Assembly (NCBI RefSeq): GCF_000242435.1
Contig: NZ_JH591189.1
Location: 43,420-93,116, forward strand
Length of the DNA stretch: 49,697 nucleotides
DNA from: Dialister succinatiphilus YIT 11850
GTDB lineage: Bacteria; Bacillota; Negativicutes; Veillonellales; Dialisteraceae
Reading direction: 5' to 3'
The position numbers and the translations under genes were made by a program. Positions 19,614 through 48,376 of this stretch are shown here, piece by piece. How positions within the stretch are numbered: position 1 is the stretch's first letter; the number at the start of each line of letters is the position of its first letter. Under the pieces are notes generated by a model. That model made no database searches. It was not told where the DNA came from and saw only the letters and a list, made by a program, of their open reading frames with translations.

Positions 19614-19742
19614 AGAAGCGCATGAATCAGTACGTCCCGGGCATCCCTTTTGGCAAAATCATGCTTTCTGGTGCAAAGACAGGCCAGGATGCCCCTGCCT
19701 ATTGCAGAACCGGCCTGTTTCGTACCATGTCGCAAAATCTAT

Positions 19743-19774
19743 TTGACAACAGCTATCAAGAGTGATACTATAAT
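19743..19774 (+). promoter_or_regulatory. Promoter of the tandem cobalamin-riboswitch unit
   Basis: TTGACA at 19743-19748 followed after 17 bases by TACTAT (19766-19771), overlapping a TATAAT at 19769-19774 (20-base spacer). Transcription would start near 19781, just before the first aptamer. Confidence 0.7.
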
Positions 19775-19794
19775 GACAACCGAATATGAAAAGA

Positions 19795-19972
19795 AAGGTG
19801 CCCTGAGGGCTTAATAGGGAAGACCGGTGAAAAGCCGGCACGGTCCCGCCACTGTAATGCGGAGCGAATCCAATGATGTCACTGAGAAATCGGGAAGACG
19901 GATAGCGAGGAAGCAGAGTCAGGAGAACTGCCTGTCTTATATCACCGTTTGAACCCACGAGCGATGGGAAGG
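19795..19972 (+). promoter_or_regulatory. Cobalamin riboswitch, first copy
   Basis: The conserved core GAAAAGCCGGCACGGTCCC followed by GCCACTG is at 19829-19853 and the B12 box AGTCAGGAGAACTGCC at 19917-19932. The aptamer then continues through a conserved segment ending GCGATGGGAAGG. Known members bind adenosyl- or other cobalamins and usually switch off B12 synthesis, transport or B12-independent isozymes. A terminator hairpin follows at 19990. The core of this copy is identical to that of the second copy over about 55 bases, so the pair arose by a fairly recent duplication. Confidence 0.93.
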
Positions 19973-19989
19973 GGATGTCGTATGGATGT

Positions 19990-20018
19990 CTCTTTGCCCT
20001 GGGTAAAGAGCTTTTTTC
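19990..20018 (+). terminator. Terminator of riboswitch copy 1
   Basis: CTCTTT at 19990-19995 pairs with AAAGAG at 20005-20010, followed by C and six T. It lies 18 bases after the aptamer, as an expression platform would. Confidence 0.75.
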
Positions 20019-20064
20019 ATGGGTTGAACATTCGGTTATTGAGGAGCACAATTTCATAAGTAAA

Positions 20065-20247
20065 GCAGGTGCCCATAAGGGCTTAATAGGGAAGACCGGT
20101 GAAAAGCCGGCACGGTCCCGCCACTGTAATGCAGAGCAAATCCAACAGAAGTCACTGAGGAAATTGGGAAGGCTGGAGGCGCGAGGAAGCAGAGTCAGGA
20201 GAACTGCCTGTTTTGTATCACCGTTTGACCTACGAGCGATGGGAAGG
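20065..20247 (+). promoter_or_regulatory. Cobalamin riboswitch, second copy
   Basis: Same organisation as copy 1: conserved core at about 20098-20123, B12 box AGTCAGGAGAACTGCC at 20193-20208, and the GCGATGGGAAGG tail. The variable arm between core and B12 box differs in sequence (20131-20185). No promoter is seen between the copies, so both lie on one transcript. Its own terminator follows at 20285. No cobalamin, transporter or B12-dependent enzyme gene lies downstream. Confidence 0.93.
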
Positions 20248-20284
20248 TGTGTATTCATAAAGCCGATTTCTTTGGCCTGCCTTG

Positions 20285-20317
20285 AATCCACCTTGTCTGC
20301 AAGGTGGATTTTCTTTT
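20285..20317 (+). terminator. Terminator of riboswitch copy 2
   Basis: AATCCACCTT at 20285-20294 pairs perfectly with AAGGTGGATT at 20301-20310, followed by TTCTTTT. Confidence 0.9.
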
Positions 20318-20326
20318 GCATACCCG

Positions 20327-20790
20327 CCGGGAGATGATGACAGGGAACATCATTTTCCCGGAAATCTTCCCACCCTCTATCATTCGATGTAACGCCTGAA
20401 GAAGGCTTTACATATACCTGTGGGGATCTCTCCATGGTTCATCTCCTTTTGGGTGATGGCGGTAAAAGGGAAATATCATCATCACCCACCCCGTTTACCA
20501 TACCTTCTTTATGAAGTTCCTATATATCGGGTGCTTCGGCACCACTCTGATACAGGGGGCTGCCCCCCTGAGATTCATCTCCCTTTGGCGATGGTCATAA
20601 AAGGGAAATATGATCATCGCTCCTTTTTACCATCCCTTCCTCCGGGAAGTCCTCATAAACCGGTGCGGCGCACCGGAAAGGCTCTGCCATACGCCTTCGG
20701 TGAAAGGCAGATGGCCTGTCATTTGGGTAATAGCATTCCGTAAGGATGTTATTATACAGGTTCTCATAGGAGCGCACTGCTCCAACCCCT
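20327..20790 (+). ncRNA. B12-riboswitch-controlled structured region with repeated hairpins, no convincing ORF
   Basis: Between the second riboswitch terminator and the terminator at 20794 there is no credible protein. Instead there are many hairpins: 20327-20361 (stems CCGGGA/TCCCGG and ATGATG/CATCAT), 20388-20412, 20451-20487 (GGGTGATG/CATCACCC), 20530-20543 (UUCG tetraloop), 20553-20570, 20587-20621 (GGCGATG/CATCGCT), 20636-20649, 20660-20676 (CCGGTGC/GCACCGG), 20680-20716, 20728-20754 (GTAA tetraloop) and 20769-20783. Three of them (starting 20327, 20451, 20587) carry AGGGAA in the loop. Two units of about 137 bases (from 20434 and 20571) are clear imperfect repeats. Function unknown; a regulatory RNA or a decayed region are both possible. 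Confidence 0.5.
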
Positions 20791-20793
20791 TTT

Positions 20794-20822
20794 GAAGCGG
20801 CTTGGTGTCGCTTCTTTTTTTG
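20794..20822 (+). terminator. Terminator closing the riboswitch unit
   Basis: GAAGCG at 20794-20799 pairs with CGCTTC at 20809-20814, followed by eight T. It lies just before the separate gpx promoter. Confidence 0.82.
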
Positions 20823-20823
20823 C

Positions 20824-20852
20824 TTGCATTATTCGATGAAATTCGATATAAT
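20824..20852 (+). promoter_or_regulatory. Promoter of the glutathione peroxidase gene
   Basis: TTGCAT at 20824-20829, 17-base spacer, TATAAT at 20847-20852. This separates gpx from the riboswitch unit upstream. Confidence 0.8.
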
Positions 20853-20944
20853 AGAACCATCAGATAGATAAATATCGTTTTACTTAGACATGGATTAGCC
20901 GGCGGCGCCGCCGCCTTTAGGGCATGAGAGCCCGGGAGGTTTAT

Positions 20945-29234: not shown

Positions 29235-29315
29235 CTTTATAGGTATAAAGGCAAAGCAGGTGAAAATCTGTGACGCAAAACTATAGGGCCTGTTACATGG
29301 CAGCCAGCTGCAACG
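29235..29315 (+). promoter_or_regulatory. c-di-GMP-I (GEMM) riboswitch
   Basis: Conserved elements appear in order: AAAGGCAAAGC (29247), a short GAAA-type arm, GTGACGCAAAACTA (29270-29283), GGGCCT, and ATGGCAGCCAGCTGC (29297-29311). This is the GEMM-I aptamer pattern, which binds bis-(3'-5')-cyclic di-GMP. Two terminator hairpins lie between it and the start of a diguanylate cyclase gene, so c-di-GMP probably feeds back on its own synthesis. The sign of control cannot be read off with confidence. Confidence 0.88.
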
Positions 29316-29424: not shown

Positions 29425-30795
29425 ATGGAAGATGACAAGTTTATACCGGACCTGGATATGAATGTGCCGGTAGCCTATGCTGCTTTTGAAGTAGTGATGG
29501 ATGAGGAAAAGAAAAAGGCCATAGACGCCATCTATGTATATGTCAATAAGGCATACTGCGAAATGGTGGGGAAAGATAAGTCCGAGCTCATGGGCCGCTC
29601 TTTCTTGTCCGTCTATGACAATGCCGATGAAAAATGGTTCGACTACTGCTATGAAGCGGCTCAGGGAAAAAGGATACGGAACCGCATGTACAGCCGGGAA
29701 GTGGGCCACTGGCTGGAATTTGAAGTGGAGCCGGCCGGTGAAGGCCGGGCGGCCTTCATCTTCATGAATGTGGATCTGGACCATGTGGAACGGATGAACC
29801 TCCGCCAGTCCACCAACACTGACGATATTATCATCAAGCTGGTGAAAATCATGGACGGCGGGGAAAGCTACGAAAAAGCGGTGAACCACATGCTGGCTGA
29901 GCTGGGTACCATTATTCATGCCGACCGCCTCTACATTCTGGAAACGGACGGAAAGACAGCAAGCAATACCTTTGAATGGTGCCGGGAAGGGGTAAAGCCT
30001 GAAATCGACACGCTCCAGAATCTTCCCTATGACGAATATATCGGCGGCTGGGAAAAATACCTGGTTCGCAATACCAGTCTGGTGCTGGAAGACATCGGCG
30101 TTCTGGCGGCTGATGACCCTGTGGACTATGAAAACCTGAAACGGCAGGGCATACGGAATATTATGGATTCCCCCATTTACGATGGCGGAAAACTTATCGG
30201 CTACATCGGCGCCGATAACTATGAAATCAGCGATGCAGTAAATACCCAGAAAATATTGGAAACTATTTCCTATTTTCTGGGAGCCCGCATGGTGAACCAG
30301 AAGCTCCTTTCCCGGCTGGACTACCTGAGCCACCGGGACATGCTGACCGGTGTGAGAAACAGAAACAGCTTCATGGAAAAGCTGGAAGAACTGGAGGGGC
30401 TGGCACACCCGGCGGGCATCGTATTCGGCGATGTGAACGGACTGAAAAGGGCCAATGATGAAGAGGGCCACGTGGCAGGAGACAGGCTCCTCCGGCGGGC
30501 GGCAAAGGCCATGCAGCAGTTCTGGGGCGATGAGTTCGTATACCGCGCCGGGGGAGACGAATTCGTGGTCCTTCTGCCGGATATTTCTGAATGTGCCTTT
30601 TACAGGAAATTTGAAGAATTTTATGATGCCATGAAGGCCAAAGAGAATATGTCCATTGCCCTCGGCGCCCAGTGGGCCGAAAGCGGCAGCCATCTCAATG
30701 CTGCCTTCAACCAGGCAGACCGGAAAATGTATCAGGATAAGAAAAAATACTACCATCTCTGCCTCACGGAAATGGATCCGGAAAAGGTGAAATGA
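29425..30795 (+). CDS. Diguanylate cyclase, PAS-GAF-GGDEF
   Basis: A 456-residue protein. PAS-like domain at about 15-120, GAF domain about 145-290 (with NTFEWCREGV), GGDEF domain 305-456 with the intact active motif G376-G-D-E-F380. No RxxD inhibitory site is visible upstream of it. It would make c-di-GMP from two GTP. No membrane segment, so cytoplasmic. The GAF-GGDEF part is clearly related to the C-terminus of the giant c-di-GMP protein at 350-4858 (shared NTFEWCREGV and L.Y.EY.G.W..YL). It is under a c-di-GMP-I riboswitch. Confidence 0.93.
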   Translation: MEDDKFIPDLDMNVPVAYAAFEVVMDEEKKKAIDAIYVYVNKAYCEMVGKDKSELMGRSFLSVYDNADEKWFDYCYEAAQGKRIRNRMYSREVGHWLEFEVEPAGEGRAAFIFMNVDLDHVERMNLRQSTNTDDIIIKLVKIMDGGESYEKAVNHMLAELGTIIHADRLYILETDGKTASNTFEWCREGVKPEIDTLQNLPYDEYIGGWEKYLVRNTSLVLEDIGVLAADDPVDYENLKRQGIRNIMDSPIYDGGKLIGYIGADNYEISDAVNTQKILETISYFLGARMVNQKLLSRLDYLSHRDMLTGVRNRNSFMEKLEELEGLAHPAGIVFGDVNGLKRANDEEGHVAGDRLLRRAAKAMQQFWGDEFVYRAGGDEFVVLLPDISECAFYRKFEEFYDAMKAKENMSIALGAQWAESGSHLNAAFNQADRKMYQDKKKYYHLCLTEMDPEKVK

Positions 30796-30874: not shown

Positions 30875-31180
30875 ATATCAAAAAAGTGCTGATGGAAAAA
30901 AGTACTCATTTTGGAAGCCAAGCAGAGAGCCGGCATTGGGTGGGAACCGGCGGCGGAGGAATGAGGAAGTTCTTTCCTGAACTGCGCGGCTGAACGTAAA
31001 AGTAGGCTGCGACGCATGCCCCCGTTACCGGGCGTAGAGTTGATCTGATGAAGATAATTTGGGTGGTACCACGGATAATCCGTCCCTTGGGTACCACCCT
31101 TTTGTGTTGATTCAGGTAAACAGGGTGGTACCGCGATGTGTCCCGTCGTCCCTTGCTTAGAAATAAGCAGGGGACTTTTG
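30875..31180 (+). promoter_or_regulatory. T-box leader with Phe-type specifier and two antiterminator/terminator modules
   Basis: Stem I shows AGTA (30901-30904), helix CTCATT/AATGAG (30905-30910 with 30960-30965), GGAAA/TTTCC (30894-30898 with 30973-30977), AGAGAGCCGGC and a GGTGGGAACC-like apical part. The specifier loop strand between the helices is GAAGTTC (30966-30972), giving TTC (Phe) as specifier. The T-box motif TGGTACC occurs twice: 31064-31070, with terminator 31061-31070/31090-31099 plus TTTT, and 31126-31132, with terminator 31148-31175 plus TTTT. The TGGT bulge fits a tRNA with discriminator A73, as tRNA-Phe has. Uncharged tRNA would allow read-through into pheC. Confidence 0.88.
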
Positions 31181-31214: not shown

Positions 31215-31994
31215 ATGGATATGAAGAAAATAGCAGGAGCCGCCGTTTTGGCAGCAGGGCTTCTCCTGGGAGGCGCCGGCAGCGTTTGGGCCGCCCATTT
31301 GGAAGATATTGCAGCCCGGGGGACCCTCCGGGTGGGTACCACCGGTGATTATCGGCCCATGTCCTATAAGGACGCTGATGGGAAGTATGAAGGCTTTGAT
31401 ACAGAACTGGCAGAAAAACTGGCAGACTCCCTTCATGTGAAGGTGGAGTACGTGCCCACCACATGGAAGACCCTTTCCGCCGATACGGCAGCAGGAAAGT
31501 TTGACCTGGCCCTCTGCGGCATTACAAGAACCTTTGACCGGGAAAGGACCCTGGCCATGTCTGATGGCTACCTCCTCTTCGGCAAGACCATTCTCTGCCG
31601 GAAGGGAGAGGAAGGAAAGTACAAGTCCCTGGCGGACCTGGACAGGCCGGAGGTGAAGGTCATGGTGAATCCGGGCGGAACCAATGAGAAATTTGCCAAG
31701 AGCCGCCTGACCCACGCCACCCTTCTCATCCATGAGAAGAATGCAGAAATCCCTTCCCTCATAGCGGAAGGAAAGGCGGATATCATGATTACGGAAACCA
31801 TGGAAGCCAGGCGGTATGTGCGCATGAATGAAAAGCTGGCGGCGCCATTGGTGGACAAGCCCTTTACCAGAAGCCGTTTCGGCGCCCTCATGGCCAAGGG
31901 AGACCAGGATTTTCTGAACTATGTGAATTTCTTCCTGGCAGAAATGGAAACTGACGGTACCATGGATGCACTGGAAGATACATACATTAAATAA
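31215..31994 (+). CDS. pheC: Cyclohexadienyl dehydratase (periplasmic prephenate/arogenate dehydratase)
   Basis: A 259-residue protein with a signal peptide (cleavage after VWA near residue 24) and the type 2 periplasmic-binding-protein fold. It matches PheC of Pseudomonas aeruginosa better than amino-acid-binding proteins: LRVGTTGDYRPMSYKD at about 36-51, and VNPGGTNEKFAKSRL near 150, the latter almost identical in PheC. PheC converts prephenate to phenylpyruvate or arogenate to phenylalanine outside the cytoplasm. The Phe-specific T-box upstream supports this call independently. The alternative is a solute-binding protein of an amino-acid ABC transporter. GGGAGG precedes the ATG; a nearer ATG at 31207 is out of frame. 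Confidence 0.78.
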   Translation: MDMKKIAGAAVLAAGLLLGGAGSVWAAHLEDIAARGTLRVGTTGDYRPMSYKDADGKYEGFDTELAEKLADSLHVKVEYVPTTWKTLSADTAAGKFDLALCGITRTFDRERTLAMSDGYLLFGKTILCRKGEEGKYKSLADLDRPEVKVMVNPGGTNEKFAKSRLTHATLLIHEKNAEIPSLIAEGKADIMITETMEARRYVRMNEKLAAPLVDKPFTRSRFGALMAKGDQDFLNYVNFFLAEMETDGTMDALEDTYIK

Positions 31995-47366: not shown

Positions 47367-48376
47367 GCATCTCCTCCCAGCGCTTTATAAATTTCGCGTC
47401 GTCCCGACAGGGCAGCCCTCTCGGCCCCTTCTTTCGCGCACCAGATGGCAGGAAAGAGTTCCGGCGGAATGGGGGGCTTCGGATTTCCTGTGATATAGCA
47501 GATGGGAATATAGGGAGAAAGGCCGGAGCCCATGAGGGCGCCGGTCCGTCCTGCCCGGAGGAAGCCGGACAGGGCATCCATCCATTCCTCTCTGGTGCGG
47601 ATGGTGTGGGACGCAGTCCCCTTTGGGGCGGCAAAGACGAAGCGGAAAGGGATGCGGGCAGACAGCAGGGCAAGGCCGGCGGAATAGAGGGCATCCCCTA
47701 CCGTATCCCGGAGCACCTCATCCTCCTCATAGTCGGCGGCCAGAACGATTCTATCACTGCCGGCGGGATAGGAATCCCGCACATATACATCATCCTTCCG
47801 GGCAGTGACCTTCCAGTTGATGAGATGGGGATTGTCTCCGGGCTTGTATTCCGTGGCACCGAAATATTCTACCTCCTCGCTGCCGGCTATGCGGCGCAGG
47901 GCAGCCAGGGCATCATGGAAGGTGCCAGCTTGCTTTGGATACACCAGGATGGGAGACGCCGGGAGCTCTCTTTGAAAATGGAAAAGGCCGAAGGGGTCCT
48001 TCCAGGAAAAGGTGATTTTCCCCAGAGAAAGGCGGCCGCAGTGGACCATGGACCGGGTGAAATAAAAGACAAGCCCTTCCTTTTCTTCCTCATAGGCCTC
48101 ATAGGGGGAGCCGGAAAGACGTACTTCCGGCGAAGACAGGAAAGGAAGAAAAGGACTTTTCAGGGAAATGGCAATTTCTGCCTCTTTTCCCCGTTCTACG
48201 CGGCTGGGAGCCTCACAGGCGAAGGAAACGCTGCGCCCTGCCTTTCTGCTGAAAAAGTAAAGGCAGAAAGGTGATAGAAGAAGCATGACTGAGAGCAGGA
48301 AGGAGTCATAGAGGTCATAAATCACCATGAGGAAAAAGGCGATGAGAAGAAGGAACACATAGTAAAAACGGCCCAT
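47363..48376 (-). CDS. DUF58-domain protein
   Basis: A 337-residue protein with two N-terminal membrane helices (about 5-42) and the DUF58 motif YKPGDNPHLINWKVTAR near 185, followed by a von Willebrand A-like region. DUF58 proteins are partners of MoxR ATPases; function is poorly defined. It ends inside the start of the transglutaminase gene and begins directly after moxR, so the three are one operon. Confidence 0.87.
   Translation of the reverse strand: MGRFYYVFLLLIAFFLMVIYDLYDSFLLSVMLLLSPFCLYFFSRKAGRSVSFACEAPSRVERGKEAEIAISLKSPFLPFLSSPEVRLSGSPYEAYEEEKEGLVFYFTRSMVHCGRLSLGKITFSWKDPFGLFHFQRELPASPILVYPKQAGTFHDALAALRRIAGSEEVEYFGATEYKPGDNPHLINWKVTARKDDVYVRDSYPAGSDRIVLAADYEEDEVLRDTVGDALYSAGLALLSARIPFRFVFAAPKGTASHTIRTREEWMDALSGFLRAGRTGALMGSGLSPYIPICYITGNPKPPIPPELFPAIWCAKEGAERAALSGRREIYKALGGDA

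Follow-up and report, generated by a model that had tools for sequence, protein, structure and literature searches.

A putative B12-gated small RNA gene behind tandem cobalamin riboswitches in Dialister succinatiphilus and related Dialisteraceae

Our analysis suggests that a locus of Dialister succinatiphilus YIT 11850 is the gene of a B12-gated small RNA that would act in trans, with its own promoter and terminator and without a protein product. The locus lies in a 49,697-nt stretch of a 2.5-Mb genome (contig NZ_JH591189.1); this whole stretch is called the window, and the features of the locus are collected in Table 1. We predict that the two tandem cobalamin riboswitches at its start act one after the other as transcriptional OFF switches. 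With B12 bound, P13 would be stabilised, the 5′ strand of the antiterminator would thereby be removed and each terminator would form; when B12 is scarce, polymerase would pass both terminators and produce an RNA with a body of about 500 nt. A repeat unit of this body is predicted to pair with the ribosome-binding site (RBS) of mcm, probably aided by Hfq, and to block mcm translation while the cofactor is missing. We are highly confident that this is a real, B12-responsive and independently transcribed non-coding RNA. The full statement, that the RNA acts in trans through RBS pairing and that mcm is among its targets, is one towards which we lean without being sure of it.

Very few riboswitch-controlled regulatory RNAs are known, mostly from Listeria and Enterococcus, and the present family from the Negativicutes would add an independently evolved case. 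A regulatory RNA controlled by a riboswitch is in itself of a known kind; the RNA body is a previously undescribed RNA family, and no earlier report of such an RNA in Dialister was found in the open-access literature. It combines two serially arranged B12 sensors with a new hairpin repeat, and a concrete candidate for its target can be named.

Table 1. Features of the B12-gated RNA locus (positions are those of the window)
Feature	Position	Strand	Basis
Unit promoter, sigma-70-type, TTGACA-17-TACTAT	19743..19771	+	Promoter scan and comparison with relatives
Aptamer 1, cobalamin riboswitch RF00174	19779..19949	+	Rfam 94.4 bits, E 2.5e-22
P13-like hairpin of riboswitch 1, CCCA-CGAGCGA-TGGG	19954..19968	+	Equivalent element in relatives
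Inferred antiterminator 1 (AAGGGGATGTC / GATGTCTCTTT), overlaps terminator 1	19969..19995	+	Nascent-leader fold; equivalent in relatives
Intrinsic terminator 1 with T-run (stem 19990-20010)	19990..20018	+	Terminator scan
Aptamer 2, cobalamin riboswitch RF00174	20050..20225	+	Rfam 100.2 bits, E 5.6e-24
P13-like hairpin of riboswitch 2, CCTA-CGAGCGA-TGGG	20229..20243	+	Equivalent element in relatives
Inferred antiterminator 2 (AAGGTG..ATTCA / TGAAT.CACCTT), overlaps terminator 2	20244..20294	+	Nascent-leader fold
Intrinsic terminator 2 (20284-20311 in scan)	20284..20316	+	Terminator scan
Non-coding RNA body	20319..20822	+	Fold z = -5.1; conserved in relatives; without conserved ORF
Hairpin H1, loop ACAGGGAA	20327..20360	+	Model R1 match 34.4 bits; covariation
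CU-rich anti-RBS motif 1 (CCATGGTTCATCTCCTTTTG), complementary to SD + spacer + AUG	20432..20451	+	Pairs with mcm RBS
Hairpin H2, loop AAAGGGAAA	20452..20486	+	Model R1 match 40.2 bits
CU-rich anti-RBS motif 2 (GAGATTCATCTCCCTTTGG)	20570..20588	+	Sequence comparison
Hairpin H3, loop AAAGGGAA	20587..20621	+	Model R1 match 39.1 bits
Conserved 3′ hairpin GTAATAGCAT..ATGTTATTAT	20727..20756	+	Kept in five genomes
Conserved single-stranded CCAACCCCTTTT and intrinsic terminator 3 (stem 20794-20814, T-run)	20784..20822	+	Terminator scan, comparison

Two cobalamin riboswitches in series

An earlier note on this DNA, made from the letters alone, had placed a promoter ahead of the aptamers. The scan recovered it, and its TTGACA-like box with the 17-nt spacer was found at the equivalent position in all 10 loci compared. 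An Rfam search, which that note had proposed, put both aptamers far above the gathering score of RF00174 (31.5 bits). Both are clear members of the family, cobalamin binding itself being inferred. The two aptamers were thus correctly called, whereas their cores, described as identical, are only nearly so (88% over a 90-nt block and 96% over a 48-nt block). They differ from the usual RF00174 members in that they stand in tandem and ahead of a non-coding RNA. The intrinsic terminator claimed after each aptamer was found as well.

A hairpin of the form CCYA-CGAGNGA-TRGG, which we read as P13, lies 3′ of each aptamer; its stem occurs among the relatives as CCCA/TGGG, CCTA/TGGG and CCTA/TAGG. In folds of most of the 17 expression platforms, the strand directly 3′ of P13 is able to form an antiterminator by pairing with the terminator's 5′ arm, and the three elements overlap one another. 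The antiterminator is weak in some folds (G001_2, G008_2 and G010_2; G numbers denote genomes). The lower part of P13 (e.g. CACC/GGUG) also involves the 5′ strand of the antiterminator, and compensatory versions were seen by eye, such as CUGC/GCGG in G001. In well-studied cobalamin riboswitches, bound cobalamin stabilises P13. If it does so here, B12 would favour termination and the RNA would be made at low B12. This OFF polarity is an inference from folding models, and no expression or B12-response data bear on it. With two switches in series, a tighter shut-off should be expected.

A structured RNA body without a conserved reading frame

The hairpin-rich stretch described in the earlier note folds far better than its dinucleotide shuffles (20318-20822, -186 versus -152 kcal/mol). 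A conserved TAATARCATC hairpin near its 3′ end is followed by CCCCTTTTGAAGC, which runs into the third terminator; the latter had been proposed before and was confirmed, stem and T-run alike. With its own promoter and a U-rich intrinsic terminator, the unit meets a trait of Hfq-type sRNAs. No known Rfam family scored above its gathering score in 20220-20920, where the best match at a relaxed threshold was a chance one (20.6 bits against a cut-off of 44). A genome-wide dispersed repeat was rejected, the RNA body being present as one copy in the genome.

The absence of an evident protein gene, already remarked upon, is borne out by the relatives, among which no ORF of the body is conserved and the longest ORFs shift in place and frame. 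Weak tblastn matches track conserved DNA in every frame and on both strands. By chance, reading frames as long as 107 aa remain open here, and one could read the unit as coding for a small protein or for leader peptides. This is hardly to be expected, since none of them stays in frame across relatives and a 258-aa ORF on the minus strand (19659-20435) is not preserved in G005, G003 and G004.

Conservation among relatives

Our sample comprised 12 Dialisteraceae genomes, nine of them RNA-positive and three negative, and the positive genomes represent at least three genera. Similarity of the non-coding part at the DNA level was found in three genomes of the same genus (G003, G004 and G005), each with a tandem of cobalamin aptamers ahead of the similar part. 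G007, G008, G010 and G001 likewise have two aptamers in tandem before a non-coding stretch, and the set of hairpins is found in these four genomes and in G011.

The flanking genes in the window are an asparaginase gene and gpx (Pfam), and gpx also lies downstream of the unit in G005, G003 and G004, the last with mmd genes upstream. This arrangement would suit a long 5′ leader that places gpx under B12 control. We consider such a leader very improbable, as the terminator with its T-run and a separate gpx promoter intervene and as other genes follow the unit elsewhere: a serine-dehydratase-family gene in G007, pnp in G001 (with msrA upstream), a Cu-amine-oxidase N-domain gene in G010 and similar reading frames in G008 and G011. 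The gpx promoter had been proposed at 20824-20852, and TTGCAT-17-TATAAT can indeed be read there, although it falls below the scanner's -35 threshold. Since the downstream genes differ between genera, the RNA is an independent unit that travels as a gene of its own.

The earlier note had allowed for a riboswitch pair orphaned by deletion of the gene that it once controlled, and would have abandoned its preferred B12-gated non-coding RNA had a B12 gene stood directly downstream in relatives with 20327-20790 unconserved. The locus comparison that it proposed gave the opposite result: in none of the relatives is the unit directly followed by a B12 gene, and the modules of the body are conserved in nine genomes. 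That no coding gene precedes the third terminator would agree with an orphan pair followed by decaying sequence. However, the hairpins, CU motifs, 3′ module and terminator are kept with covariation in at least three genera and next to different neighbours, which refutes the orphan pair in its simple form and leaves it scarcely credible. The conserved body and the lack of a downstream B12 gene instead support a B12-gated non-coding RNA, the first option of that note.

Two variants of the unit were observed. In G011 (L052 reverse complement, about 2690-2790) the second aptamer appears to have decayed, the RNA body being kept with one intact riboswitch. In G010 (L050:8788-9400) an apparent second, shorter unit lies directly before the mutA riboswitch; it has a single cobalamin aptamer with a terminator, then a single AGGGAA hairpin and another terminator.

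Repeated AGGGAA hairpins

The body is built from a repeat unit in which a CU-rich anti-SD/anti-start segment, a long [C/A]AGGGAA hairpin, a CU-rich segment and a short hairpin follow one another. Between the long hairpins, the conserved CU-rich single strands read GGTTCATCTCCYTT on the 5′ side of a hairpin and CCYTTTT on its 3′ side; a short hairpin is also present there, with a UAUAUA-rich run behind it. We collected 26 long hairpins with the [C/A]AGGGAA loop from the nine genomes, two to five per RNA. Their stems vary widely yet stay paired while the loop is constant. Changes on both sides were seen in 12 of the 13 stem pairs, with 71 double-change cells where shuffles led us to expect 23. 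The covariation score of 0.589 (0.243 in shuffles) was reached by none of 500 shuffles, and controls with slid positions gave 0.07-0.34. Collection required a stem around the loop, so the percentage of paired positions is inflated.

At least 10 of the 13 stem pairs are formed by 6 of the 44 AGGGAA sites on the forward strand of the window and by 1 of 31 on the reverse strand, and H1-H3 are the best of them all (12, 12 and 13 pairs). A covariance model made from the hairpins gave strong matches at the RNA locus only, in each of the nine genomes. It found no match in 49 other Veillonellales and one further match in 300 class-level genomes. This match (G121) was dismissed as chance, lying inside a coding gene with no riboswitch nearby, as was one at G000:C1:560666, which is antisense within an ORF beside cobalamin-synthesis-like genes and has no AGGGAA loop.

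A constant loop on covarying stems, in a copy number that varies from two to five, recalls CsrB-type decoys, and the purine-only loop cores and the co-occurrence of Hfq (see below) would also be in keeping with an RNA that sequesters protein. Its [C/A]AGGGAA hairpins would then bind Hfq, as with CrcZ, or an unrecognised RNA-binding protein, and titrate it at low B12. We regard such sequestration as possible but doubtful. The conserved anti-RBS motifs would be left unexplained, and no other convincing AGGGAA hairpins occur elsewhere in the genomes, which leaves no visible mRNA targets for release. In addition, neither of the two proteins whose matching sites are best known fits. ACAGGGA agrees with the CsrA consensus, and the repeated hairpins with GGA in the loop meet a trait of CsrB and RsmZ; nevertheless CsrA was found in none of 40 Veillonellales genomes, control genomes being positive. 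Given its absence from these 40 genomes, a CsrA decoy was rejected, and the CsrB-like look must be convergence or coincidence.

The second protein is the ANTAR antiterminator, which RNAs of the Rli55/EutX type sequester. We give this possibility very little credence, even though the gating logic is alike and every genome encodes one ANTAR response regulator adjoining a sensor kinase. The gene is present in the three RNA-negative genomes too. An ANTAR dual hairpin is defined by hexaloops with A1 and G4 and a short linker (PMC3369931). With 3-bp stems and a linker of 3-14 nt, no A1/G4 hexaloop pair was found in the nine RNAs (0.93 expected), whose hairpins lie about 100 nt apart and have mostly 7-10-nt loops.

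The mcm ribosome-binding site as a candidate target

Motif 1 reads as the reverse complement of a ribosome-binding site, comprising SD, 7 nt and AUG. In the window and the mutase region, the RBS of mcm, the gene of a 553-aa B12-dependent methylmalonyl-CoA mutase, is among its best matches outside the locus. This RBS (TTTTTAGGAGGAAGATGAAC, with the spacer AAGATGAAC) is invariant in eight genomes, between flanks that vary, and pairwise identity before the ATG is 92% for mcm versus 44% for mutA in the same genomes. The complementarity can be read from the sequences themselves; that mcm is a target, and that the outcome is repression, we infer. Such regulation would make sense, as a B12-dependent enzyme would not be translated without B12 and the making of unusable enzyme would be spared. 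Methylmalonyl-CoA mutase catalyses a step of propionate metabolism, and in a gut genus the RNA may therefore link B12 supply to propionate production.

When the motifs of each genome were paired with its own mcm RBS, energies of -21 to -26 kcal/mol were obtained, and only 0-3 of 300 shuffled motif sets matched this. The mcm RBS ranked first among the tested RBSs in five of eight genomes (G004, G007, G001, G008 and G011), third of 8 in G003, fourth of 68 in G000 and fifth of 24 in G010; in these last three, other sites pair equally well or better. Between 6 and 68 RBSs were compared per genome, and mcm was picked after viewing the best matches in the mcm locus and the window, not by whole-genome ranking. 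Because mcm was noticed before testing and the comparison sets are small, we regard it as a strong lead, not as proof. Anti-SD motifs pair with many RBSs, the conservation of the mcm RBS could have another cause, and the predicted fold leaves motif 1 only partly unpaired. RNAduplex runs with the full-length RNA on the genes of the window yielded no information, as long loops dominated them. The start of a gene at 48376 gave a match of 14 nt.

A strictly conserved AGGGAA loop is unnecessary for simple RBS pairing. UCCCUG, complementary to the loop core CAGGGA, occupies codons 5-6 of mcm in 8 of 8 genomes, and only 4 of 35 conserved leucine codons of mcm are invariant. We can speculate, tentatively and without expecting it to hold, that this new RNA family pairs with the mutase RBS and that its constant [C/A]AGGGAA loops in addition capture a protein not known to bind RNA in this way, or kiss UCCCUG in the mutase coding region.

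Cobalamin riboswitches, the hairpins and methylmalonyl-CoA mutase occur in exactly the same nine of 12 Dialisteraceae genomes and in none of the other three. In six genomes, mutase genes are no more than about 5-16 kb away from the RNA. Hfq was detected in eight of the nine RNA-positive genomes, the exception being G007, a MAG of 75% completeness, and was absent from the three negatives; the binding of Hfq to the RNA, and any dependence on it, are inferred. The co-occurrence of Hfq and mutase is confounded by clade and genome size, and rests on 12 genomes only.

We also considered mutA, which encodes a B12-dependent methylmalonyl-CoA mutase subunit and whose start region can pair in two pieces. 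It cannot be the general target, since its spacer is unconserved and the mcm-type mutase gene was the only one seen in G004, G008 and G011. In five genomes (G000:C2 around 364393, L011; L055; L051; L053; L050) mutA stands behind a single cobalamin riboswitch, with GACAATTTCA ahead of the aptamer and TGAAATTGTC near the mutA start possibly forming a long-range pairing. The nearby mutA riboswitch also has the look of an OFF switch in at least one of the relatives, G007, which would be odd for a B12-dependent enzyme. The mcm gene of G007 (L119, G007:C45) is broken by an in-frame stop or frameshift, possibly an assembly error.

Comparison with known regulatory RNAs

EutX of Enterococcus has a B12 riboswitch before a non-coding RNA, is full-length without B12 and is linked to a B12-dependent pathway. 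The same is true of Rli55 of Listeria (PMC8079631). The Dialister RNA meets the defining trait of this type, a B12 riboswitch with a terminator upstream of a non-coding RNA, and resembles both in its inferred termination with B12 and its link to a B12-dependent pathway. In contrast, it has two aptamers in series, a different repeated hairpin and no ANTAR dual hairpins, and its likely partner is the mcm mRNA rather than a regulator protein. The analogy with Rli55/EutX drawn in the earlier note thus extends to the gating logic, as inferred, and not to the mechanism. Without CsrA in the genomes searched, and without an ANTAR dual hairpin in its sequence, the RNA is a copy of neither CsrB nor Rli55.

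AspocR of Listeria is a B12-gated regulatory RNA that is produced without B12 and represses B12-related genes (PMC8079631). The Dialister RNA is B12-gated in like manner and, by inference, produced in the absence of B12. AspocR, however, is cis-antisense to the neighbouring pocR, whereas the genes flanking the Dialister unit are on its own strand and its pairing would be in trans and imperfect. RNAs of the LhrC family of Listeria reportedly carry several CU-rich sites in single strands, for which pairing with Shine-Dalgarno regions has been proposed. The Dialister RNA shares such anti-SD sites; unlike it, LhrC is stress-induced, not riboswitch-gated, and without AGGGAA hairpins. In the decoy RNAs CsrB, CsrC, RsmZ and CrcZ, numerous hairpins share a constant purine loop that includes GGA, whereas their stems vary. 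The Dialister RNA differs from these in the lack of CsrA in the order, in its longer stems, in the CU-rich motifs between its hairpins and in its B12 gating.

As a separate observation, exactly one clear ANTAR response regulator lies next to a sensor kinase in 12 of the 12 Dialisteraceae genomes, e.g. at L058.

Other riboswitches in the window

Two further riboswitches were seen in the window. A c-di-GMP-I riboswitch (29240-29315, 53.9 bits) lies upstream of a 456-aa ORF at 29425 that looks PAS-like by eye; the genus Dialister is usually described as non-motile. A T-box leader (30880-31090, 130.5 bits) lies upstream of an ORF at 31215 resembling an amino-acid ABC transporter binding protein.
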